Assembly: GCA_010094025.1 (NCBI GenBank)
Contig: ML991801.1
Coordinates: 268,335-332,334, forward strand
DNA from: Viridothelium virens
Taxonomy: Eukaryota; Ascomycota; Dothideomycetes; Trypetheliales; Trypetheliaceae
Direction: 5' to 3'
Length of the DNA: 64,000 nucleotides
The stretch's first letter is position 1, and every line of letters starts with the position of its first letter. The position numbers were made by a program, and so were the translations under genes. Positions 3,818-62,125 of this stretch are shown here, one piece after another. Below the pieces are notes generated by a model that worked only from the letters and a program-made list of their open reading frames with translations, ran no database searches and had not been told where the DNA came from.

Positions 3818-5935
3818 ATGTCTCTCAACCAGACGCAAGTCGTTACCATTGACACTTTTTCCGATGGAGATTCAACCCACGTGCCGAATTCCACATTGCA
3901 CTGGAAGGCAGACGCTACGCTCTATCTCGAGAAGATTGCTGCTTTATGGATGCACCATAGAGGTGAAGCTGTCACTGGAGTCCGATACATACTCAATCGA
4001 CTTCCTGACGGTTACACTCTGTGGGCAAAGCGCAGGTCCACCTCAGAAAAGATCATCGACAAGTGGCTATTCGGACATCCAAGCCACAAATACTTCGACT
4101 CTCCCAATAGATTTTTCCCGCATTTTCTGCATTTAATGGATCATGGCACAAATGCAGGGTGTCCATGCACAGTATGTGGAGCCAAAGGTAGCAAAATTCC
4201 CCCTGTAGGAGGAAATCGACTTCCCAGTATACCCATTATCGGAGCCAAGCCAAGGGGTCGACCTCCCACCAAAGAGCCCCCTCCGCCGCTGGATGCTGAA
4301 GGCACGCCAGATATCTATCGATCGTTAATTAACAAACTTCAACGAGACAGACAGATCGATGTCTCGATTGAGGAGCACATGTCGTTAGACTGGCGAGTCG
4401 AGAGCGAGCATCTCCAAGAAATGCTTGAGAAACTCCCCACTCAGCCATCATGGATACCTAGACTGGGGGAGCTCGTTCTCTTTGTTCGCCATCTTGACAA
4501 GCATGATATGATCCAACGTGATCCAAGTGGGGTATTCAAGATCTTTAAGCAGGACCAGAAACAATGGGAGGGCTTTCCGCTGTGGGAAGCAGGTGTCATT
4601 ACACAAGTCGCACAAGAGGAGCTACAAATGCAGGAATTGATACGACAGTCCAATAAAGACTACCAAGTTAACTACGCTGGTTTCAGAGTCGAGCCGATCT
4701 CAGATCCGAATAGCAAGGACAAACCATTCTCTCGGCAATACAAATACGTACCGCTGCATCACATTAGACCCTTCGCATTCTGGACAGAAATCCTGCATGG
4801 CACGCCTCAGGAGAAAATACATGAGACGGTCCAAAACGCCAAAACTCTCGCTTCTTCTCTCACGCTTCTTAGCAAACATCGTTTCCGGGGCACATGGCCT
4901 TCATCCGACATCTTCTGCAAAGGTCTCTACTTAGGTTCTGAACTAGTAGTCGTTGGTGATACTATACGCCTTTTGCCAATACTCGACACAGCGAAAGTAA
5001 CAGACATTTTGAAGATCACTGCAATCAAACTCAAGTTCTCGGATCTCCACCAAGCAAGCCATGACGACCAGAGTGATGGCCATCCATACAATAGTAGAGT
5101 CATTGTCACTGGCAAAGCTTACACCATAGACGTGAAAAAAGCATCACCGGGTGCGCAGCCCGTCAGGCCAAGCTTTGGTTTGATACCAGCCGGCATTCAC
5201 GGTTTTGGGAAATGGTATCCGATGCATGCTGGCGATCAATCAATGCAGATAACTTTCAACAGCATCCTTGGTCGTTGCTACGACAGCAAAGCTCTACAAC
5301 TCTGGTTTTCATCCTTGGAGCCCACTGCCAACGAAATCGTCAAGCAGTCAATGGAACTTTCTTCGGGTCTTCAGGGAACCTTGGAGGCAAGAAGCCATGC
5401 TCGAAAACGCGACAAGCGACTATCGAGGGAGGGACGAAAGTGGCTGTGGACGGATACTAGGGCCGAGGCGTTGGACGTGGAGAGCTTGAACGGCATTGAG
5501 ACCTCGAAACATGACGAAAATAGGAATCCCAGAAGATGGGTGAGGTATATCAAAGAATTGGATGGCATTGCGGGCCCTGAAGACAAGGCAGCTCTAAAGA
5601 GAGACGCAGAGAAGCGGAAGAGATCGATTGGCGGTCTGGCAAGTCAAAGTAGCTTCGTCCAGAGCGCATTGGCCCCCGTCAGTGGAACCACGTCAGAAGA
5701 GGCAGATGAAGGGGCTGGGGAAGAGGACGATGTTATCGAGAGAGCTAGCAAGAGAAGTAGGAATGCGGTCGTGGAGAGAGGGAATCGGAGCATCGATGCT
5801 CCCCAGCTTCGAGGGGAGAGGGCGGAATTTGTTGACGAGGAGACCGATAGCGTGATTGAAGTGCAAGAAAGCGAAGAAGACGAGGAAAGCGATGAAGTTG
5901 ATGATCTGATGATGCTGGATAGATTTCAATCCTGA
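3818..5935 (+). CDS. Clr2-like heterochromatin silencing protein
   Basis: 705 residues, single exon, ATG at 3818 (the frame is open further upstream but has no ATG there). The N-terminal block matches the cryptic loci regulator 2 N-terminal domain: YILNRLPDGYTLW, then a GHPSHKYFDSP..FFPHF segment and a zinc-type CPCTVCG cluster at about residue 115. A long central region with RLGELVLFVRH and a TILHGTPQEKIH-like helix fits the Clr2 transcription-silencing domain. The C-terminus is acidic and low complexity, with basic patches (KRSRNAV) suggestive of nuclear import. In fission yeast Clr2 belongs to the SHREC histone deacetylase/remodelling complex; the same chromatin role here is inferred. Family assignment rests on the N-terminal motif set. 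Confidence 0.85.
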   Translation: MSLNQTQVVTIDTFSDGDSTHVPNSTLHWKADATLYLEKIAALWMHHRGEAVTGVRYILNRLPDGYTLWAKRRSTSEKIIDKWLFGHPSHKYFDSPNRFFPHFLHLMDHGTNAGCPCTVCGAKGSKIPPVGGNRLPSIPIIGAKPRGRPPTKEPPPPLDAEGTPDIYRSLINKLQRDRQIDVSIEEHMSLDWRVESEHLQEMLEKLPTQPSWIPRLGELVLFVRHLDKHDMIQRDPSGVFKIFKQDQKQWEGFPLWEAGVITQVAQEELQMQELIRQSNKDYQVNYAGFRVEPISDPNSKDKPFSRQYKYVPLHHIRPFAFWTEILHGTPQEKIHETVQNAKTLASSLTLLSKHRFRGTWPSSDIFCKGLYLGSELVVVGDTIRLLPILDTAKVTDILKITAIKLKFSDLHQASHDDQSDGHPYNSRVIVTGKAYTIDVKKASPGAQPVRPSFGLIPAGIHGFGKWYPMHAGDQSMQITFNSILGRCYDSKALQLWFSSLEPTANEIVKQSMELSSGLQGTLEARSHARKRDKRLSREGRKWLWTDTRAEALDVESLNGIETSKHDENRNPRRWVRYIKELDGIAGPEDKAALKRDAEKRKRSIGGLASQSSFVQSALAPVSGTTSEEADEGAGEEDDVIERASKRSRNAVVERGNRSIDAPQLRGERAEFVDEETDSVIEVQESEEDEESDEVDDLMMLDRFQS

Positions 5936-6785
5936 GAGTAGGGGAGAAGTCATTTCCGTGGCTAGCTTAGGTGGACAATGGATCGACATGAGATGTAGAT
6001 TTAGGTTGGGCTTCTATGGCTATTTTTGACCCATGACAAGTATGCAACGCTGAGGCTGTGAAACATTGGTGTCAACACAATCAATTCTGCATACTTAGGT
6101 ATTTAGTTCAGGGAATACATTCGGAAGGGTGATACCTTTACAGCGGCGATCCGGGCGCACGGCAAGGCATAAGCGGCTCACCGGCTTCAGCAACAGTAGC
6201 ATTGCGATAGACCGGGAAGTTGCAGTTTGTCGCTCAATCGTCTCATCGCAAATGCGCATGTGACCGTCGATGGATAGCATTTGAAAAAGGTGCATTCGCA
6301 AAGGCCATGCTACGCCACCTGGACAAAAAGTTGGCCCAATGGTGTTGTTGAAGGATGGGACGGTCTCGACCGGTCGGACCCGGAGATGGCGACCGTGCAC
6401 CAAGTCTAGATTCTCACATCAGTGATCCCCATAAGGAAATTCATTCTTACCATGCCACCTCATTTGTTGATCGAGATGATCATCGACCTTTCTACCCCGA
6501 AACACCATGCCTTCCATCTCTCGGTTCGCCGGTGCATCGGAAATCTAGGAAAGATCCATCGTCCATGCCGCTCTTTTTGGTCCTGGTCCAGACCTCTCAA
6601 CCCCCTCGTGCAATCCTCTCCCCTGTCAATATGGCCTGCGGGCCAGTCTATGTCTCACGCACGCGTACGTACGATGGCAGCAGCTATGGCTGCGGTCTTG
6701 CTCCTGGCATGCTGTTGCGTGGAAGGGACGTCTCTTGAAATCTTTTATGGAACTTGAGAGGGCGACAAGAGGAACAACAGCAACA
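5936..6785. other. Intergenic, no gene seen
   Basis: 850 bp between two plus-strand genes. Only short overlapping ORFs without family features; presumably terminator plus promoter of the SAM/HMG gene. Confidence 0.5.
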
Positions 6786-7700
6786 ATGTCATTAGATACT
6801 ATTCTCGCCGAGCTCAACCTAAGTCAGTACCTGCAGATCCTTCTTGATAACGGCTTCGACACGTGGGATGTTGTCCAAGACATCACTGAAGAAGATCTCC
6901 GCCAACTTGGCTTCAAGTTGGGCCACCGCCGCATTCTCCAGAGAGCTATAGCCGAGAGTCCCATCTGTGACTCCAACTCTCGATCCTCGACGCCGCTTTC
7001 TCGAGGAAGCTACATCTCGCACTCCCCCAAATCTAGCGTAGGAAGCATCACAAAGAGAAGGTATCGAAGACACCCGCGAGCCGACCCGCACGCTCCCAAA
7101 CGCCCTAAGACAGCCTACGTTATGTTCGCCGACCATTTACGGACAGACCCAGTCATCTCCTCACTATCGTTTATCGAAATCTCCCGAGTGGTGGGAATGA
7201 GATGGCAGGCGATGCCACGCGAAGAAAAATTTCTCTGGGACATCCGAGCAGCACGAGCAATGCAGTTCTATACCGAAACGATGCAGCAATATAGGAGGAC
7301 GGATACGTTCCGAGAACACCAGAGATACCTCGAGGAGTTCCGGCGCAGGTATGAAGCCTCGCCCTCTATCGAGGGCTGCGATTCGGCGCTACCCCCGCAG
7401 AGACCGTCTCTGGAAGCTTTGAAGGGGCAATCGAGCTCCTCTGGCTCATCACATTCTATGCGAATGGAGCACAGCGATGACAGCGCACGACTGGCTAGCC
7501 CTGACGGATCGGAAATCACTGAATATGACTCAGCGGAAGTGCAGAACATTGGCGAGAGCGAGATCCGAAGAGGGGCAAGAAGCAGTATTCATGCTCTTTT
7601 GCAAGCTGCTGAAGAGAGTGAACGCATGGAAAGCGCCAGGAATATAGCTGAAGACTTTAGACATGGCGGGGAAAGACGGAGAGTGCACTTATATAACTAA
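6786..7700 (+). CDS. SAM domain plus HMG-box protein
   Basis: 304 residues from ATG 6786, which has a good CAACAATG context; an in-frame ATG at 6747 would add 13 residues. Residues about 1-58 form a SAM domain (LNLSQYLQILLDNGFDTWD, then LRQLGFKLGHRRILQRAI), a helical protein- or RNA-interaction module. After a Ser/Arg linker comes an HMG box at about 100-180: APKRPKTAYVMFADHLR, ISRVVGMRWQAMPREEKFLWD and a basic third helix. This SAM-HMG order is known in filamentous fungi. The protein probably binds DNA and partners in the nucleus (or, for some fungal HMG proteins, mitochondria); I cannot tell which. The C-terminus is polar and disordered. Confidence 0.85.
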   Translation: MSLDTILAELNLSQYLQILLDNGFDTWDVVQDITEEDLRQLGFKLGHRRILQRAIAESPICDSNSRSSTPLSRGSYISHSPKSSVGSITKRRYRRHPRADPHAPKRPKTAYVMFADHLRTDPVISSLSFIEISRVVGMRWQAMPREEKFLWDIRAARAMQFYTETMQQYRRTDTFREHQRYLEEFRRRYEASPSIEGCDSALPPQRPSLEALKGQSSSSGSSHSMRMEHSDDSARLASPDGSEITEYDSAEVQNIGESEIRRGARSSIHALLQAAEESERMESARNIAEDFRHGGERRRVHLYN

Positions 7701-9103
7701 ACCATTTGGCCGTCCCCATATTCGGAGTATCTGGAGAGGGGCCAAGGCGAAATGGGAAAGGGCGACTTAGAAGGGTAGACCATGTTGCGGGAGTGGATAG
7801 ATGTGACCATCTCTGATGAGTGAACGGCTTTGCTCAGGCGTAGACGGGACCGTGCTCTTCCACCACAGGAGTTCGATTGGTCTTCACTACCATTGATTCC
7901 CATGCCGTTATTTTTTTTTTCTCTCTCTTTTTGGCGTAACTTCATGGTTAGGGAAAACGTGGTTATAGTATCTCATGACCTTCTCATTGCGGCTTGGGGC
8001 TTCATCCCATTGAATCTTGCATACCGACCACCCAACAACAAATTTAATTGGATATCTGTCTGTTGACTCCATAGATTCTGTGTGATTTTATCCTGTTAAC
8101 CGACGAACTTACAGCAACCGTCCGTGTCATTGCACAGTGGCCGAGCCTGGCGCTGCCTGCCATAATTCCTAGCCAATGAATTGGAGCAGGGCGAGGTACA
8201 AGCTTTGCACCCATCATCAATCCTTGGCTGGCGATTGCTGTCGTGCTGTCGTGCTCCGCCAGCCTTAAGCACCAAGACAGATCTGCGTATGCCGAGAAGA
8301 AAAGAAAAGGGCGCTAGAAGGCTCGAAAGGGGACAGTCCACGTCGCAGACCGATAGTGGAACGGTAGGAAGATGGGGCGCCAGCATGGATTATCCTGCAA
8401 GGCCATCAATTCGTCAATTCCTACCGTATCGTGCGTCTCCCACCCCGTCATCCCCTTCTCCACACCCCACGACGAAAACTTGTCGCTCGGCCATGTGGAA
8501 AGTGCCTGAGCACCGCGGCTAGGTATGGCGGTATCCAGACACCGCAGAAGTCGTCGCTTATGTCTCGGCCTTTCATTGAGACGACGATGTTCCCACCTTT
8601 GGCAGCCCAGTAGAAGATCCACGCCCATACTTTAGTCACCAAGCCAATGGTTCAATGGTCGTTCCCTCATCATGCATGGCTGCAGCTCAATTTGACCGAC
8701 GACGCATCATTCGGGACGGCTCCGCCCGTTGGTCGGCCCATCGTGATACTCAACGAATCGTCTTACTGCACTTGACGTGGCTCCAATTGCTGCTGGTAGG
8801 GTCAGATTCCTTGCTCTGTGGTTCGGTGCAACTTCTACTAAGCGATGATTTGGTCTCTGACGTTTCGTATCTTTTCTTGTCAATCTGCAATTTCACTTTC
8901 CTAGTCACCTTCCGACCCTAATCGCTCTCTCTTTGGGTTATGCTTGCCATGATTGACATGCAATGACTTTCTATTCGTTACACCACTTCGCCCCTCACCT
9001 TCTCGATACAGCACCTGCTCACCTGCGCGATGAATACAAAACTCCCGTGGCTTTCCAAGCGTGATCGTCCTCGTGCCACCGCAGTGTTTCCCCGGTGTCA
9101 GCC
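7701..9103. other. Intergenic, no supported gene
   Basis: 1.4 kb with several overlapping ORFs of 60-115 codons on both strands, none with motifs, good start context or splice support. I see nothing else in it. Confidence 0.5.
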
Positions 9104-37342: not shown

Positions 37343-39799
37343 CTACCTTTCCTTCCTCATCAGCCTTTCCATTGATCTTCGAAAGCCAAACTTCACTGCG
37401 GAGCCTCGGTCGTTTTTCCTTGCCTGAAGCAAGTCCGTGAAATCTCCACGGCAGGCTCTGGTGTCGGGATGAGAAGCACCGAGTACTCTCTCGAAGCCGT
37501 CACATGCTCTTTCGAACAAATAAATCGACTCATCGTAGTGTCTGCGGTCCCCGAGGAAGAACGCAAGGCTCCGAGCGCTCCACAGCGTACTGGGATGCTC
37601 TTTTCCAAGAGCCTTCTCTCTTCCTTCCAGCGCTCGGCGACTCATCTCCTCCGCCCCGCTCTTTTGCTGTCGGGATAACGAATATCCCAGGTTCGCCAAG
37701 CTGGAAAGCGTATCAGGATGCTCCTTTCCCAAGACTTTCTCTCTTCCTGCTAGTGCTCGCCAATTTAAAGCCTCCGCCTCATTGTACTTCCTTAGCATAC
37801 ATAGTGTTGTAGCTAGATTACCTACGCTCACCAGCGTATCAGGATGCTCCTTTCCGAAAACTTTCTCCCTTCCTACCAATGCTCGCCGATTTAAATCCTC
37901 CGCCTCGTCGTACTTCCCTAGCCTGTGTAGCGTTACAGCTAGGTTACTCATGCTCAACAGCGTTTTAGGATGGTCCTTTCCCAATCCCTTCTCCCTTCCT
38001 GCTAGTACTCGCAGATTTAAATCCTCTGCTGCCTCGTGTTTTCCTTGCTCAGATAGTATTGAACCAAGGGCGCCGAAACTCGTCAACGTATTCAGATCCT
38101 CATCTCCGAGTTCCTTCGCTCGATCACGGAGGCAGATCCGAATCATGGCTTCTGCTTGCACCAGGAGTCCCTGTGCATTTGCGTAACATTCAGCTTTATT
38201 AAGTACATCCGCACGCTGTAAGATCTGTCGTCGGCCCAATGGCTCCTTTTCGGTCAAATATTGGACATGCGGAATGAGAGCTCGACATCTGGACCAACTC
38301 TCATAGTTTACGTAAGGAAAATCCCTTGCCATTGCCGCAGTAAATACTCCCCACCACTTTTCCTCAGCGCTACTCGACCTTAGCCACATCCTGGTGGCTG
38401 ACTGAACAAGTCTGTGCATTTCAAATTCATCTCTACTCGATATACCTTTTATCAATGAGAAGTCAAGTAATAATCGGATGTCCGCTCTAAGCTCGCGCTG
38501 CAAGTGGCTGAAGAATGTAGTACTGTCGTTAGAGTCGCGCTTCCTGTGGCCGCCTATATTGCTATTCTCATCTCCGTTAACATTAGCCTCCTTCTCGTCG
38601 TCAACATTGTCTTGTTCATCACCATTCTTGTCCTCATAATGGTAAAGCATGAATTCAGGTATGTTCTGCCGGTGGAAGAAGCTCATAAATGACAGTAAGT
38701 TTGCTGCAGATGGGCGTTTGGCTCTGATGTACTCGAATGAGATCTGCCATGTCGCGAAGACTGAATTTGATGAATACTCGTCCCGTCGCACATCCGGACT
38801 AATATTTTCAAGTAGAGGATTTCGCTCTCTAATAGTCCTGATTTCCTTCAAATATTCCAGAACCAAGTCTCGAGAGTGCAAATCGTTGATATAGGCTGCC
38901 GCTTGCGTGATAGCGAGGGGGGTATAGTCCAGAGCATTCAGTAATTGTGGCCCCAGTTCACCTAGTTGTCCGGAGAGCTTCTTCTGCAGGAGTTCATTCG
39001 CTTCCTGTTGATCCATCTCTGGGACAATTATGATGTCTTTATGATAACCGACGAGCTTTCTCGCCACGTCCATATTTCGTGATGTGATCGGCATGGCTCC
39101 GTTACTACTCTGAGGGAGAAAGCTGGCAAATGAAGAGCTTTCTCCGTGTTCCCCATTTTGCGGATCTATCATCACTTCATCGTCTACATTGTCCACAATC
39201 ACAAGCCACTTTCCATTGGCCTCCCTTGTAAGCCAATTGCACACAAGTCGCATTAGGCTCGCTGAAGTCTGTTGTCGCCCAGGAAGGTCAATCATGTCAG
39301 CGATATTCTTGTACGATCCTTCAATTCTAGCCGTGGTGGCGGCGTATACCCAGAATACCCAGGTCTCTGGTGATTGCTTCCTAACATGATGGGCATACTC
39401 GATAGCTAGTTGTGATTTCCTGTTCCTCTCAGTATTTCTGCAGTATATCGTAGAAATTAACATACCCGACACCCCCTAAGCCAACAAGCGCGGCGCGGCT
39501 GGCTGGTTGAGAGCATCGTTGCGCAACACGTGTGAGGATGTCGCCGCGGTTGACGAAGTCTTGATCCTGTCTAAATGGGATGTTGGAGTCTGGCTTTAGA
39601 GGTTCTTGTAGGTTGTCTATTATCTGGATATGTTAGCAATCTGCGGCTTTTACGGTCATTGCGCTACCAATTGTGATCTACCGCTATCAAAGTGGAAGCT
39701 GGTCGTTCCTCCTGTGGTATGGACGCCGGCGACAATATTCCGGGCAAGGCTCGGCCGATCAAAGCTGAGAGAGATAGGTCGGTCCCTCTGACGACTCAT
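37343..39799 (-). CDS. NB-ARC/TPR NLR with N-terminal amyloid-type motif
   Basis: Three exons: 39799-39682, 39616-39466, 39419-37343 (781 residues). The second intron (46 nt) splits the Walker A codons; splicing gives GLGGVGKSQLA (Lys91). NB-ARC marks: Walker B WLVIVDNVDD (Asp166 region), sensor GAMPITSRN, TPLAITQAAAY at 256-266 and an MHD-like MHRLVQ at 424. An acidic Asn/Asp-rich insert lies at about 353-381. Residues about 527-762 are TPR repeats of the kinesin-light-chain kind with GKEHPDTL signatures every 42 residues (one unit 41). There is no enzymatic N-terminal domain: residues 1-40 carry only the short motif also found in the divergent hydrolase. By analogy with fungal NLRs, ligand sensed by the TPRs would drive oligomerisation and amyloid templating of the partner. 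The first intron has two in-frame solutions that differ by a few residues. Confidence 0.88.
39686..39742 (-). other. Amyloid-signalling-type motif, NLR N-terminus
   Basis: Encodes residues 20-38, RNIVAGVHTTGGTTSFHFD. Compared with the hydrolase C-terminus it shares N, G, TTGGTT and F-x-F in register, with no gap (10 of 19 identical). Confidence 0.75.
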
Positions 39800-40565
39800 T
39801 ACAACAGCTATCTGAACAGCAAATGAAATTAAATGCTTTAGAAATTTGTGTTGAAGCCCCAGAAACAGCATACTCGTTGGAGGCCAGAGAGCAATGCATT
39901 TGGATACTCTATGCGGTCATTTCGGATACTCTAGAGTGGAGCAGCTAGGCTACATCACGTTGCTTTTTTGAGCGTATAGCCATCTCGATTAGGCTGCATA
40001 TTGGACATCTCTTAGGCTCGTAGTATCCGCCAATAGATGCCAACCATGCATTATGTAGGGTTTGGGCACACAGCACTAGTCTGCCTTTGATTGATTAGCG
40101 GCTATCTCGAAAGAATCAGGCTCTAAGGTTATTATCTCGACATTTTGAACTACAAAGATCCTTTAAAGATTGATTCCAACATCATCACTCTTGAACGAAC
40201 CTCGCTGGAAGTCTGTGGACGATAACTTGCGCTGGCTATCGGCTACTGATGATGTTAGGCACCGTTTTTTGGAGAAAAGGACTCGATTAATTTCTCTGTG
40301 TAACCTGAGATAAGGGCTCTATATAAACCTCATCGAAAATGAGGACAGTAAAAAACCTAATTAACTAGTAAAATGAGGACCTACGTAGTAGGTTCGAGAA
40401 TCTCGCGCATTGACCCTCGTGTAGAGCATAGCGAGATTACGCGCTACGCTAGGTTGATTGGATCAACTTCATGAAGAACATCATGAACATCATCAGCTAC
40501 ACCTTGACATTGTGACGAAAATACGGCCATCGCCTGTGTGACTACTCTATCACAAAATCCTGTCC
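39800..40565. promoter_or_regulatory. Divergent promoter of the NLR/hydrolase pair
   Basis: 766 bp between the two start codons, so both genes could be co-regulated. Contains a TATATAA box 240 bp before the hydrolase ATG, a CTACGTAG palindrome at 40381-40388 and 8-bp inverted arms AATCTCGC (40399-40406) and GCGAGATT (40431-40438). No ORF of note. Confidence 0.55.
40320..40326 (+). promoter_or_regulatory. TATA-like box, hydrolase side
   Basis: TATATAA in the divergent promoter, oriented toward the hydrolase gene. Match seen; use inferred. Confidence 0.35.
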
Positions 40566-42115
40566 ATGGCTGAGATACGTCGGGATGGCTTCACGAAGCT
40601 AAGTGGTGACAGTGGTGGTGGTGCAAACAATGATTACCGTCTCAAGTATGTAACGTCTATATCATTTCTGAAAGTTACCCAAACTGACCCTGTAAGTATT
40701 ATATTCGTGCATGGTCTAAGAGGACACCCCAGAGAAACATGGGAAGGGAGCCCTATGAAGCCAAAAAGCGGCCAGTCAAGCGCACCAAACATTTTCAAGT
40801 CGCTCTTCAAGCACAATCGACCAAGTCAATCAACACAACAAAGGGGTCAAGATGGAAATTCCCTGTCAGCAAAGCTATTCTGGCCGGAAGAATTACTCCC
40901 AGAAGATATGCCTCAAGCGAGGATCTGGACATATGGCTACAATGCTGATGTGATTAATGGACTTTTCCAGGCAAACAATAAGAATAGTGTGTCTCAGCAC
41001 GGGCGAGATCTTGCTGTTCGCGTTGAGAGAGAGATTGTGAACAAGGTATCGGAATTTTTGGGCTCATTGAAACCAGTGAAAACACTAACACGATACAGGA
41101 TCCCATATTCTTTGTTGCTCACAGTCTTGGCGGAATCGTTGTGAAGGATGTAATTGGTCTACGGCTCAGTATTTACTCTGCCTCCTACTAATTCTGCCTT
41201 CTAGGCCTTGCGCCGGTCTAAACTTTGCCGTATGCAGACTAAGCTCATCGTCTTCCTCGGGACACCGCATCGCGGAAGTGGAAGTGTGGGGTGGGGTGAG
41301 ATAGCACCAAACATAGCTGGCATGGCATTGCAAGAATCGAACAAGGATATCGTCCAAACCCTAGCTGTCAATAGCGAGGTGCTAGACAATATCCACGAAG
41401 AGTTTACTGGCATTGTTCAAGAGCTCAGGATCAAGATCCATTCTTTCCAAGAGGCGCAGGGTGTCTCTGGAATGAAGGGACTCGACAGAAAGGTGAGTTC
41501 ATGTCGTTTGCCAGTTTCCATTCTACCATCACCCATGGGTGCAACAAGAAGTAACGGCAGGTTACGCCAAGACGGAAGTGACGAGCTCTGGCTAAGGAGC
41601 TCTTTGCTCGACCTTGGTACGCATCTTACTGATGCCCTCAATACCTGTGAGAGTCAAAGTTTTTGCCAAGATTGATGGCGCTTATGTCTTTGGTTTCAAT
41701 CTTCGATGTCACTGACATAAAAATGGAATAACGAGAGCAGGTAGTCGATCCCTTCTCCTCAAAACTTGACCTGCCATTATCGATCGAGACGGTCGAGACT
41801 ATTGATGCAAACCATATGCAGATGGCGAGATGCAGTGGTAAAACGGATCCGCGCTATCTTGCCATCTGTGGAGTGCTTCAACGCTTCGTACGAATTGACC
41901 TGCTTAATGGAAACACCCAAGAAATGAAATTGACCCACCCAACCCAGATGGAAGCCCCGTCAAAAGCTGCAGCAGGTCCAGAATTGGAGCATCACTCATC
42001 TGCTAGAGCGCAGGGACGGACCGACGGCATCGTTTTTAGTGGACCGATATCAGGACATAATGTCATATCAGGCATGCAAACAACAGGGGGAACGACGAAC
42101 TTCACTTTCAACTAA
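40566..42115 (+). CDS. SesB-like alpha/beta hydrolase, amyloid-type C-terminal motif
   Basis: Four exons: 40566-41045, 41099-41149, 41205-41492, 41741-42115 (397 residues). The first two introns are 53 and 55 nt; the third is 248 nt. Lipase/esterase-type alpha/beta hydrolase: FVHGLRGHPRETW at about 47-59, WTYGYNADV, nucleophile elbow VAHSLGGIVVKD with Ser169, FLGTPHRGSG, and a His in DANHMQMARCSG at about 298. After the catalytic domain comes a polar linker, then a C-terminal motif at 379-397. In fungal NLR systems the SesB class of putative lipases pairs with an adjacent NLR and is thought to be activated through a shared amyloid motif, causing cell death. Family and pairing are supported by sequence; substrate and effect are not known. 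Confidence 0.88.
42056..42112 (+). other. Amyloid-signalling-type motif, hydrolase C-terminus
   Basis: Encodes residues 379-397, HNVISGMQTTGGTTNFTFN, and the stop codon follows immediately. The extreme C-terminal placement is where effector amyloid motifs sit. Confidence 0.75.
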
Positions 42116-56614: not shown

Positions 56615-59600
56615 TTAGCTATAATACTCTAATAACCACGCCTTTAGCACGCCGATCGTTGGATACTCGAGGAACAAACTGCCCGCGACGTTCACACCCA
56701 GCTCCTCGCGGAACTTCTCGGCAATAACAAGGCTCATCAGGCTGTCGACACCCAGATTGGCGAATTCGGCGTCGTCAGTGAGCTCCGCCAGGTTGAAACC
56801 AGCTTCTTTGGCGATCAACACGAGGGCCTTGTGCGCTGTGCTGTCCTGATCGTCTGTTGCGGGTGTTGGTACTGCCGAAGACTTTTCGGGTAGGACCTTG
56901 GCCTCTACCGATGTCGGCACAACTTCCGTGGGCTGTGGCAACTGCGCCGACTGCGCTGGCTTTGGTGGTGAGGGCTCAGGATGGATCACTTTTGGTGGAT
57001 TCGGAGCATTGCCGGCGGCATGCGATTTTGCAACCGCCGAGTCAGGTGCCGAGAAGAAGCGGTTCAGTAGAATGCGTGGATAGCGGCGAAACTGGATACC
57101 ACCGACCATTCCTATGATCTCGCTTTTCTGAAGGACGTAGACGTCACCAAAGTGTACTGATGGATCTTCGGTGGTCGGGATCATTTTGACGTATGACCGG
57201 TAACTCTGACCGCCAACAAGTGGACGCGCGAAACGCATGCTCTTCCATCCTGGTGTCACACAGAAAGTTTCGGCGCTATTACTGGCATCTGAGACGTTCA
57301 TGATGAAACCTGCAAGATGCGCGACGCTGTCGATGAAATAAGGTGGTACCGTGTAATCGCCGTGGCCATGAACCTCCTTCAGCGTAACATCGGCGTATGC
57401 TTCGAACCCATTCAAAACAACTATTTGCATACCACGATAGTTGTCGGCGTAGTCCACCAGATTATGTGCAAACAGCGTGTATGCCATGTTGTGAGAAAAG
57501 CGGCTTGCAACGCCCTCTTCCGCAAGCTTCCCCAATGCGTCGATACGACCTTGAATAAGGTGGGTCAGTGAAGCCCAGGATGATAACCAATGGCTTGCAT
57601 TGCCATATAGGATACGGCATGTAGCGAAGGGTTCAGAGACGCCACCGTCATTGGAGACATTCTGCCAGATTAAGTCCGCCCCAACAGTAGACACATCAAC
57701 CGTCGATGCAGTAACACGAATCATTTGCGGCGTCTTTGTATTCTTTTGTGCAACAAGCCCCTTCGTTACCTCTAAATGTGTAATGTCGACGTGGATAGTT
57801 TCAACCTTGGGGACCAATTGTCTGTAGAGATACTCGCTCAATGTGTACGCGATGTCAGCGTGGATCGACTATGCGCTCAGATTAGTGTCTCCTTGGCTGG
57901 TCACTACACGCTTCACTTACCGAGGTCACAACGCCGCATCCGTTCATCCTATGCCCATGTGCAGCCGCAAGAAACGACGACTGCATTAGATCGGACTGCA
58001 TCACGACCTTACCGTGCGTTCCAGTGAACGTCTCCTCTAAAATGTTCTGAACGGTCGCTGTTCTTAGACTTGAAACTGGGGTACTTGTACCACTTGACGT
58101 TCCCCGGGAGTCATAGAACGTGTTGCCCTTAGTCAAAGCCCAGTCACCCTTATACTGGATCCAATGTCTCTTCTCGTTCCAACAGTAGGTGGGAAGATCC
58201 AGGAGACGGAGCGAGCCTTCGAAAGGTTGATGAAACTCGCCCCAACGAATCTGCAAACCAGCACAATGCAGTTGTCCTAAAGCCTGAGATAGAGTAGTCC
58301 AGTTATCCTCACCACGGCAGAATGAGCCCACAGTGACGGGAGCTGGTTCCATTATGGCTTTTATGAAGGCAGTGCAAACAGGATGCGGGCCAATCTCGAC
58401 CCAGACGGTGTCCTTGTCGATACTGGATGTCGTCTTTGCATTCTGTATGGCAGCCAAGAAATTGACAGTTTCACGGGTCGCTCGGCGTACGTACTCTGCA
58501 TTCACAGAATTTTCATCAAACACAACCTTACTAAGTAAGGCAGAAACGATCGGAAGAGTAGGTGCGCGGAAGAGAACAGCTTTCCTCAATAACTCCTCAA
58601 GCTCGTTGAGAATAGGATCCATTTGAGCAGAGTGGAACGCGAAAGGAACATCTAGAATAAAGCAGCGGAACCCCAGGTCTCGTAGTAACGATGAGATCTC
58701 GTCCATCTGTGCCGTCGTACCGCTAAGAACGGTCTCTTTGGGAGCATTGACACACGCCAGGTCATAGGACAAGCCGTTGACCGCGTCTTCAATTGCCGAC
58801 AGAGATGCCTTAATAGCCAGCATGCAGTGGCTTCCTGCTGTGCAGAGAGACTCTAGCATGCGAGCCCGAGAGCCGACGAGGAATATGGCATCGCTAGCTG
58901 AAAGTATACCTGCCACGCAGAAAGCAGCATATTCACCCAAGCTGTGCCCCATTACTAGCTCAGGTTTTACACCCAGCGTCTCCCAATATTTAGCTAAGGC
59001 GATTTGGACGCAAGTATGGGCGACCTGAGTGATGACTGGCGAGAAAACGTGATCTCTTGGGAAACTGCCATCGATAGCTGGAATGAAGGATGGGAATCTG
59101 TGCCCTTGAGCAAGAAGATTGAGGTGTGTTATCTGAGCATGGAAGAATGGTGAGTGGTGGTAAAGCTGCAAATTCATTGACTTTTCCGCCGCTCCTTGGC
59201 CGGTGAAGACAAATGCGACAGGAGGCGCATCCGGACCAGAGACATGCTTCTGAGTCTCAGTCTCTTGAAGATGAGAGATGAGTTGCTGTTTCAATGAGCC
59301 GACTTCCGCAGCATGGATCGCGAGACGATGGTTGTGGTGGTAGCGTCTTGCGGTCAATGAGTACGCCAGGTCGGCCAGGCAGACATCCGGATGTCCATCC
59401 AGGAAGTTGAGCAGTCGCTCCACGTTACCCTTCAGTGAACGCTTGCTCTTAGCAGAGACTGTAAAGACGTGACTAGGACGTGGATCGGTTCCTATCTTCT
59501 CTCGCAGTGGTGGCTCCTCTAGAGCGACAGTAGTATTGCCACCAGCAGCGCTGAAGTTATTAATAACAGCAATGCGCTTTCTGTCCGGTGTGCGAGTCCA

Positions 59601-62125
59601 ATCAGTGGGTTTGAAGGGAATGTGCAGGTTGCGTTTCTCCATATCCTGGGGAAAACCAGGATTGATGTCATTCTTGATACCGATGTGAGGTGGAATAGTA
59701 CTCTTTTGAAGCATCAGCAATACCTTAATAAGAGCAGTCACACCAGCAGCAGCCTCTCCGTGACCAACATTCGCTTTGACAGCGCCAATATGCAATGCTT
59801 GCTTCGCTGTCCGCCTTTTACCCTTGATAGGGGCGAAGACTTCTGTAATGGACTGCATCTCCTCCGCGTCCCCAGCCTGTGTGCCAGTGCCATGAAATTC
59901 GACATAGCTAACGTCAAGAGGATTGACACAGGCCCTTGACATGACTTGCCGGTAGAGGTCTGCCTGATGACCAGCGTGTGGATGTGTTATAGAAACCGCA
60001 TTGGCGGAATGATTGGTGGCCGCAGCTGTTATAACTCCAAGGATATTATCGTTATCAGCCTCAGCATCATCTAAGCGCTTTAAAACAATTGATCCAATAC
60101 CATCTGCACGGCAATATCCGTCGGCCTGGCAGTCCCAGGTTTTGCAAGCATTGGGGGTCTTGGTGAGGAAATGTCCATTGCAAAGACCAGCAAACGCATC
60201 TGAATTAGTTAAGACATTAAGCCCTCCAGCTACCACCGTGTCCACATCGCCTGCCCACAGAGCGGTACAAGCTGCTTGAATCGTGGCTAAACTGGAGGAG
60301 CAAGCCGTATCACAGTTAAAGCTTGGGCCGGAGAACTTGAAGAAGTAGTTGATACGGCCAGGACCAAAAGCCCGGCAGCCGCCGGGGATGAAGTATGTGC
60401 TAATCTCTTGAGCAGTATTCACCTCTCGATAATCGTCGCTTGCCTGGCCATACCACGTGCCTATTCGAGCTAGATTTGTTGCACGAGTCCGGTTAGCCAG
60501 ATATCCTGAGCGTTCTAAAGCCTCATATGCTGTAACAAGTGCTAGACGCTGCATGGGATCTGTTTGCTCAGCCTCGCGAGGAGACATATTAAAAAAGGGC
60601 GCATCAAATAAGCCTGGCTCATTGATAAAGCAACCATAAGCTGTATGACTGGTATTCATCTTCTTACCGGTTACATCATGGTGCGATTCTACGTCGAAAC
60701 GGTCGGCGGGTATTTTGCGATGAACATCGATACCTCCCTCAAGAAGTTCCCAAAATTTTTGGGTATCGGTGGCTCCTCCGGGCATGCGGCACGACATGCC
60801 GACGATGGCTATCTTCGACTGCATGGAGCCTCGCGGCTGATGGGGCTGTTGATGGTCGCTCATTGCTGTCCAAGAGAGTAAGTCATCTATATTCGTAGTG
60901 ACATTTGGTATCGCAGCTGTCAGTGCATCTGATAGTTGCTGTATTGGAAGAGACACCCGGAAGGCCTTCATGCTAGCGTGGCGAATCTCAGCCTTACCGA
61001 CCCGCTCAGTCACACCACGAACGACTCCATCCCATATGATCTGTTTGGTCATGATCTCAAAAACCACCTGGTGGATGAGGTTGGAGGCACTTGACGCAGC
61101 AAAGGGTTGTCCTGTATTAGTCGACATGACTGGTACTATGGGTTGAAACCGCGATGGCAGCGAAAGTGCTTGGACGACGATGTCAACATCATCATGGTTG
61201 TAGATATGAGGTGCATGACAAAGACCTCCGTACACTGGTAGCTGAGTGAACTTTCGATCGCGAAAGAATCCCGAAGTGCGAAAGAGGGCCTTTAGTCGAG
61301 ATGGTGGTCCACTCACGGTGACTGATGTGTCATTTAGAGCGCTGACGAAGACTCTACTAGCAGCTGGGATTGCCTATATGCGGAATTAAACACCTGCCAG
61401 TAGATGAGACACAGATATTGTCACTCACATCTCGTTCCTGAATTCTATCGAGCTCTTCCTGCGCATCATTCGCAGTGAGCCCATAAATGCACCATGCCCA
61501 CGAGTCGGAAGACTCGCCATCCGGAGCCTCCAGATTTAGAGATACGTCACGAACATGCAAGCCAAGACGAAATGCGATGCGCAAAACCTCGACTCCTGAC
61601 GTTACCAAGTCATCCAAAGACGTGGAGACTGATACGGCTGTTGAGACCAAAAGGCCAATACCAAGGCCAGCGAGGAGACTAGTCCCAGAACCACTGGTAT
61701 GTGGTTCCGGAGAGTTTTCGCAATAGCTGCTGCCATGTAAGCTCCTTTGGTAGACTATAGTCTATGCTGCCGAGTTCTTACCCAATGTACGTCGCCAACT
61801 GCAGGACACAGAGTAAGACCCCGTCGATTGACCCACAAAGAGGCCCTTTTCGGAGTTCCAACTCTCCGGCAAGCGTCGTTACTGATTCGAACGCAGGAAC
61901 AAGATGGGATAATTCAGTATGAAGCCTGCCGATCTCTTGCCGCAAGGTCTGCGTAGCCGCATCCAAGAATCTGCTGAGAACGGGATGATCGTGGCGCTTG
62001 CTAGATTCGCGAAGTCTTGTAAACAAGGATGAGAGATCGTCGCTAGGAAACTCGTTGCTAAAGTAGACAAGGTTGAGCTTGAGACCGCCATTCTCATCTT
62101 CGGATAGGGGCGTGCGGGAAACCAT
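56615..62125 (-). CDS. Non-reducing PKS, SAT-KS-MAT-PT-ACP, no TE
   Basis: Four exons: 62125-61782, 61729-61429, 61373-57921, 57868-56615 (1783 residues). Iterative type I non-reducing polyketide synthase. Starter-unit acyltransferase at about 1-370 with [13 protein letters not shown]; ketosynthase from about 402 with Cys573 in DTACSSS, His709 in EFHGTG and His753 in NVGHGEA; malonyl acyltransferase with Ser1026 in GHSLGEYA; product template domain with His1356 (HRMNG) and Asp1546 ([10 protein letters not shown]); one acyl carrier protein with Ser1742 in LGVDSLMSL. It ends 41 residues after that serine: no thioesterase, Claisen cyclase or reductase. Size and layout equal atrochrysone carboxylic acid synthases, whose product is released by a separate metallo-beta-lactamase enzyme; that gene lies next door. 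Exact product is inferred. Confidence 0.95.

Follow-up and report, generated by a model that had tools for sequence, protein, structure and literature searches.

A short motif shared by a divergent NB-ARC/TPR receptor and a SesB-like hydrolase suggests an amyloid signalling pair in Viridothelium virens

Introduction

Two divergent genes lie side by side in a 64,000-nucleotide stretch of the Viridothelium virens genome (assembly GCA_010094025.1, positions 268335–332334 of contig ML991801.1, labelled C31 and 332,334 bp in length), which we refer to as the window. One codes for a NOD-like receptor (NLR) of the NB-ARC/TPR type and the other for a SesB-like alpha/beta-hydrolase, and the same short motif stands at the N-terminus of the first and the C-terminus of the second. 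The sequences strongly support the view that the two are a receptor and its effector, joined by this motif. We put the probability that they are a two-component unit in which the signal passes by amyloid templating, with a motif class of its own, at roughly 0.8. Judged from sequence, what is new is a recurrent family of receptor N-terminal motifs, for which a single effector bearing the motif has been found. V. virens is placed in the Trypetheliales (Dothideomycetes), and we take it to be a lichenised fungus; if the reading is true, amyloid-type immune wiring operates in a lichen-forming fungus.

The motif families that underlie fungal amyloid signalling are few. Four are named, with a second PUASM and GDQN in addition, according to excerpts of PMC12261475. 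One more family, its receptor and effector paired, would provide a defined pair of 25-residue peptides for work on fibre structure and cross-seeding, and a profile of the class would annotate short receptor N-termini that otherwise appear 'empty'.

Results

The receptor copy of the motif, FDRPSLARNIVAGVHTTGGTTSFHF, lies at residues 13–37 (39689..39763, minus strand, in the first exon), and the hydrolase copy, FSGPISGHNVISGMQTTGGTTNFTF, which receptor-derived profiles recover, at residues 355–379 (42035..42109, plus strand), one residue short of the C-terminus. The two align over 25 residues without gaps and with 12 identities. An initial annotation of the locus had described 19 shared residues, 10 of them identical; these peptides were found at the positions given for them and are indeed shared, whilst the real motif is longer, starting with F and P upstream. 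The best ungapped BLOSUM62 score between the two termini is 77, and none of 20,000 shuffles did as well (maximum 52). When the 30.7 Mb genome was searched in six frames with the hydrolase motif, the query recovered its own site at E 6.3e-12 and, as the only other match, the NLR next door at E 0.013, and the N-terminal motif of a Dactylonectria NLR (P0178) found the window hydrolase tail as its sole match (E 0.012). An exact DNA pattern for TTGGTTxF occurs at two sites in the same 30.7 Mb, namely the two motif copies. The protein-level genome searches score only the best candidates from a loose first pass, and within that scope no third motif-bearing gene was found in V. virens. Among 21 motifs compared with that of the window NLR, the closest is the partner hydrolase's (score 70; next 60). 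Since the motif is short and rich in T and G, chance or a common low-complexity bias with no functional link might be suspected; the shuffles, the genome-wide queries and both receptor-derived profiles described below make this very unlikely, and we give it next to no weight. A nucleic-acid element as the source of the match was dropped because the motif DNA is identical at 45 of 75 positions, with 8 of the 12 shared residues using the same codon, and because the motif recurs at the protein level.

The NLR gene (37343..39799, minus strand) has three exons in the spliced translation (39799-39668, 39623-39466 and 39419-37343) and codes for 788 residues. Its NB-ARC nucleotide-binding region (PF00931, E 2.4e-5, 24.2 bits against a cut-off of 23.5) covers residues 88–244, with an intron inside, at 38978..39494, and the TPR core covers residues 548–660 or thereabouts at 37730..38068 (TPR_10 at E 3.1e-55, with TPR_12, NPHP3 TPR and TPR_16); both pairs of coordinates, on the minus strand, were computed by hand, the former from the exon table. 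Pfam also reports DUF7779 and five TPR_10 stretches, and the Walker A region reads GLGGVGKSQ. As the initial annotation held, the Pfam scan and a reading of the N-terminus agree that there is no effector domain, the short motif standing in its place. The motif-bearing start has an exon to itself (39799-39668), which the 706-residue open reading frame does not include. The deposited model, EV356DRAFT_485845 (P0121, 781 residues), uses other splice sites after the first exon and has the same motif. In HET-eN of Nectria haematococca the NLR motif was likewise concealed by an overlooked 5′ intron, according to excerpts of PMC3321046.

Across 766 bp of intergenic sequence between the two start codons (39800..40565) lies the hydrolase gene (40566..42115, plus strand), with five exons (40566-40645, 40697-41045, 41099-41149, 41205-41492 and 41741-42115) coding for 380 residues. 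The initial model had 397 residues; its C-terminal tail stands, and the gene very probably contains an extra intron at 40646-40696, because splicing there restores RLNIIFVHGLRGHP (YRL-NIIFVHG), the reading also seen in P0002 and other homologs. The motif is present in both deposited gene models, P0121 for the NLR and, for the hydrolase, P0001 from a metagenome-assembled genome. Outside differently predicted introns P0001 is identical by eye to the window hydrolase; its source genome is labelled Trypethelium eluteriae and is possibly misnamed, or from a very close species.

The hydrolase family was examined through the best 120 of 286 homologs above threshold. The closest, bar the window's own protein, are P0002–P0005, with 60–64% identity over 71–85% of the length. 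A catalytic triad is predicted from the homolog alignment and a structural model of P0002, as expected of a SesB-like alpha/beta-hydrolase: serine 152 in HSLGG, a candidate aspartate at D259, assigned by inspection, and H281 in DANH. In an alignment of 40 homologs, conservation reaches at least 90% in every HSLGG column, and the DANH histidine never varies. Matches to Pfam models fall below the cut-offs (PGAP1, 19.2 bits; DUF676, 18.4 bits), and a profile of the family picks up the esterase BlEst2 (6wpx) with an E-value of 4.9e-7. The AlphaFold model of P0002, which is 60% identical, has a mean predicted local distance difference test score (pLDDT) of 68.5 and a predicted template modelling score of 0.67, with a confident core of strands and helices and a tail (338–429) predicted to be disordered (pLDDT < 50). 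In 13 of the 120 homologs the hydrolase occurs fused to NB-ARC (PF00931). P0002, itself metagenomic, ends in FTGSINTSGGKAIYGNIFQSGGSMTF (residues about 400–429), perhaps yet another motif; by eye the tail resembles the motif described here, and it was rejected as a copy on the class profile, which gives no match.

On the receptor side, scoring was confined to the 8,000 candidates with the most words in common with the query, and the best 120 of the 1,624 homologs above threshold were retained. Their N-termini were read by eye, the long ones in part; some are fragments or have no anchor. At 15 bits the motif is present in the short N-termini of 21 of the 119 receptors other than the window's own, from 14 genera by name, with the consensus FxGxIxGxxVIxGxHxxxGGTxNFxF; examples are FHGPLSGKNVIPGAHASSGGTINFNF in Dactylonectria (P0178) and FHGPVDGQYVIPGTHTAAGGTTNFNF in Phaeosphaeria (P0144). 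The 14 genera presumably cover Dothideo-, Sordario-, Leotio- and Eurotiomycetes. At the same threshold 32 of the 120 carry the PP motif and none carries both, whilst the window's own NLR (P0121) scores 12.2 bits, under the line. A search with the region spanning NLR residues 12–78 (10 candidates) returned only the window's own protein. Searching papers in PMC with motif strings gave no match, from which we make no claim of absence from print.

Two profiles built from receptors recover the hydrolase tail. The first, the class profile, combined 20 receptor N-termini, the window left out, with seeds picked by eye for likeness to the window motif; it matches hydrolase residues 355–379 at 31.1 bits, against 7.3 for the best of 2,240 decoys (2,000 shuffled and 240 reversed). 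Because those seeds were picked by eye, the procedure was repeated with automatically aligned N-termini from a 25-sequence NB-ARC clade (20 of 25 used), the clade itself being chosen with knowledge of the labels. Run against 122 real sequences together with 4,000 shuffled ones, it again has hydrolase 355–379 as its top match, in P0001 and the window copy (20.3 bits, independent E-value (iE) 1e-4), followed by the window NLR (16.4 bits, residues 13–55) and then, at 9.4 bits or lower, by linkers of NB-ARC fusions. The same procedure on a PP clade (28 of 31 sequences) returned shuffled sequences as its eight best matches, at 5.8 bits or lower, and neither window protein.

The motif is also clustered on a tree of 96 NB-ARC sequences, built by a quick method with support from the Shimodaira–Hasegawa-like approximate likelihood ratio test (SH-aLRT) only and labelled by regular expressions. 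All 18 motif-bearing sequences in the tree (of the 21 receptors) fall with the window NLR in one clade of 30 (SH-aLRT 96), and 25 of 26 PP-labelled sequences lie on another branch (SH-aLRT 90). The label requires 6 changes on the tree, against a mean of 16.9 when shuffled. Other N-termini also occur inside the motif clade, including four labelled as PNP fusions.

Several results weigh against our reading of the pair. The class profile gives the window NLR only 10.1 bits (iE 0.08, residues 20–37), the first half of this copy is degenerate, without the class's glycines, and a genome search with NLR residues 19–39 found only itself, the hydrolase tail not being recovered. The hydrolase motif is nearer to the receptors of four other species (scores 78, 78, 74 and 72) than to its partner (70). 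In the tree, the sequences nearest to the window NLR (P0125, P0182, P0187 and P0203) are without the motif as annotated; the N-terminus of P0187 is PP-like, and P0125 starts without the motif, perhaps because its first exon is missing. Because these neighbours lack the motif and one begins like PP, the motif may be either ancestral to the NB-ARC clade or swapped in. The five NB-ARC sequences fused to hydrolases, moreover, form a third clade apart from the window NLR. Finally, just one of the 120 hydrolase homologs carries the motif, and this one, P0001, is the window hydrolase over again. For that reason the initial claim of a complete two-gene unit stands in part: an adjacent receptor and effector share a motif, whilst 'complete' is unproven, no effector from another species having been found.

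Whether the motif belongs to the sigma class or is a new relative had been left open in the initial annotation, which proposed a search with amyloid-motif models. Such a search gave no match for any of 22 segments, both window copies included, to any Pfam model, PP, sigma and HET-s among them, at E up to 10; as a control, Ses_B (PF17046) matches 14 of 16 PP segments. No segment matches the HET-s/HRAM models at that E-value either, a result given without a positive control for the HET-s models. Sigma (PF17106) matches none of the motif segments, its sole match in the genome being on another contig and below the cut-off. Membership of the sigma class, whose three A/B repeats extend across about 40 residues, was rejected on this result and on the misfit by eye. 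The patterns of PUASM (FxGxGxQxxGxGxF) and GDQN (NxxxGxQYxxxGxGDQN...) likewise misfit the alignment by eye, and the window effector is an alpha/beta-hydrolase, not PNP_UDP. No chain in the PDB matches the class profile. By the tests run, the motif is predicted to be a class separate from HRAM, PP and sigma, on profiles, and from PUASM and GDQN, on patterns compared by eye; on profiles it falls outside sigma, PP and HET-s and is a motif in its own right, recurring on NB-ARC/TPR receptors.

A strongly diverged PP motif (Ses_B/RHIM-like) is the alternative closest to hand. IVFSG and GMQ in the hydrolase copy recall the PP consensus FxGx(x)NxGLQLxGxNxGxL given in excerpts of PMC3321046, the genome's own PP pair has IVFSG and ATGGTI, and P0187 begins PP-like close to the window NLR. 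We nevertheless regard it as unlikely: Ses_B recognises none of the 22 segments of this class, against 14 of 16 for PP, its three matches in the genome do not include the window's contig, a profile-profile comparison with PP gives no similarity (probability 0.95%), our own PP profile does not match the window motif, and the receptors bearing the two motifs are disjoint sets of 32 and 21.

Discussion

The pair has several counterparts. In HET-eN/SesB, too, an NLR with an N-terminal motif stands beside a SesB alpha/beta-hydrolase with a C-terminal one (PMC3321046, in excerpt). That receptor is of the NACHT/ANK type, whereas the V. virens receptor is NB-ARC/TPR, with no third motif gene found in its genome. 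Sigma consists of three A/B repeats, GxGxQFNxx / GGTQNINT (same excerpts), over about 40 residues (PMC5485727, in excerpt), whereas the V. virens proteins carry one 25-residue motif with no NACHT_sigma match. PNT1/HELLP/SBP likewise couples an NLR to a putative lipase through a common short motif (excerpts of PMC5485727); the PP pseudo-palindrome around Q is not in the V. virens motif, and the Ses_B profile does not match. NWD2/HET-S, for which amyloid templating is the model mechanism, is also an adjacent NLR and effector; its effector, however, is a pore-former of the HeLo type that bears two repeats, where V. virens has a hydrolase bearing a single copy. Two fungal amyloid signalling motifs of recent report, PUASM and GDQN, go with PNP_UDP effectors (excerpts of PMC9815663) and with SesA (excerpts of PMC12261475) respectively.

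The receptor motif may already have been catalogued as the unlabelled NLR34 of Wojciechowski et al. 2022, in which case only the effector partner would be new. In Table 1 of that paper (PMC9815663, in excerpt) NLR34 has 28 residues and 29 Ascomycota receptors and is given no neighbouring effector, so its length, taxonomic range and unassigned status fit. However, NLR34 also occurs with NLR19 in Tuber melanosporum (same excerpts), which has no counterpart among the 120 receptors. We treat the identity as a tentative possibility, with the odds somewhat against it.

The steps of the proposed mechanism, namely oligomerisation, amyloid folding, templating, hydrolase activation and cell death, are drawn by analogy from NWD2/HET-S, PNT1/SBP and HET-eN/SesB. 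The TPR repeats of the receptor would sense a cue and the receptor would oligomerise, so that the clustered motifs (residues 13–37) could fold into a small cross-beta nucleus of beta-arch type. This nucleus would template the matching C-terminal motif of the hydrolase, which would be gathered and activated, either through proximity or through relief from inhibition; this is the least certain step. The activated enzyme might then attack lipid or other ester substrates, killing or arresting the cell, and the gene pair is probably a built-in self-destruct switch. The motif might instead be a non-amyloid docking tag that brings receptor and hydrolase together by beta-strand exchange or simple recruitment, and a shared short sequence is by itself no proof of amyloid. 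Yet its placement, size and composition (G, N, T and aromatic residues) are those of known amyloid signalling motifs, of which the HET-s-type NWD2 peptide and PUASM have been shown to form amyloid or prion aggregates (excerpts of PMC5485727 and PMC9815663), and we consider a docking tag distinctly improbable. Amyloid templating remains our preferred reading.

A broader proposal goes further: an unnamed amyloid motif family, inherited with an NB-ARC/TPR clade across ascomycete classes, for which this locus would reveal the first effector, a SesB-like hydrolase, and which would run beside PP and sigma-like channels. We judge the chances of this to be about even.

Other channels and neighbouring genes

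Elsewhere in the genome, a stretch of contig C24 (320500-330400) holds a HeLo protein (PF14479, 186.2 bits; about 4776-5591 of the stretch, minus strand) divergent beside an NB-ARC/TPR receptor (5719-8320, plus strand), with canonical PP motifs at the HeLo end and the receptor start (Ses_B 42.0 and 28.7 bits). The receptor has one in-frame stop in its NB-ARC region, and may therefore be broken, misassembled or in possession of an unrecognised intron. On C99 (45000-54500) a SesA protein (82.8 bits; 4147-4845 of the stretch, plus strand) has a sigma-like tail, scoring 20.1–21.7 bits with NACHT_sigma, below the cut-off of 27.6. Across 140 kb of the genome (the window and eight such stretches), each profile's only matches above 6 bits are to its own pair. 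Since the profiles tested show no sequence overlap within one genome, a cell may contain several prion-like wires insulated from one another, and such parallel channels in one cell would offer a test of how signalling specificity is kept.

A paralog of the window NLR lies on C2 (891500-901000; 3251-6226 of the stretch, minus strand). The two share 51% identity along part of the NB-ARC region, and the paralog has an exon for a SesA domain (66.7 bits) directly upstream, probably an all-in-one architecture. Within the window itself, near the contig end, pieces of a polyketide synthase (SAT, KS, AT, dehydratase and carrier) occupy 56615-61373 on the minus strand.

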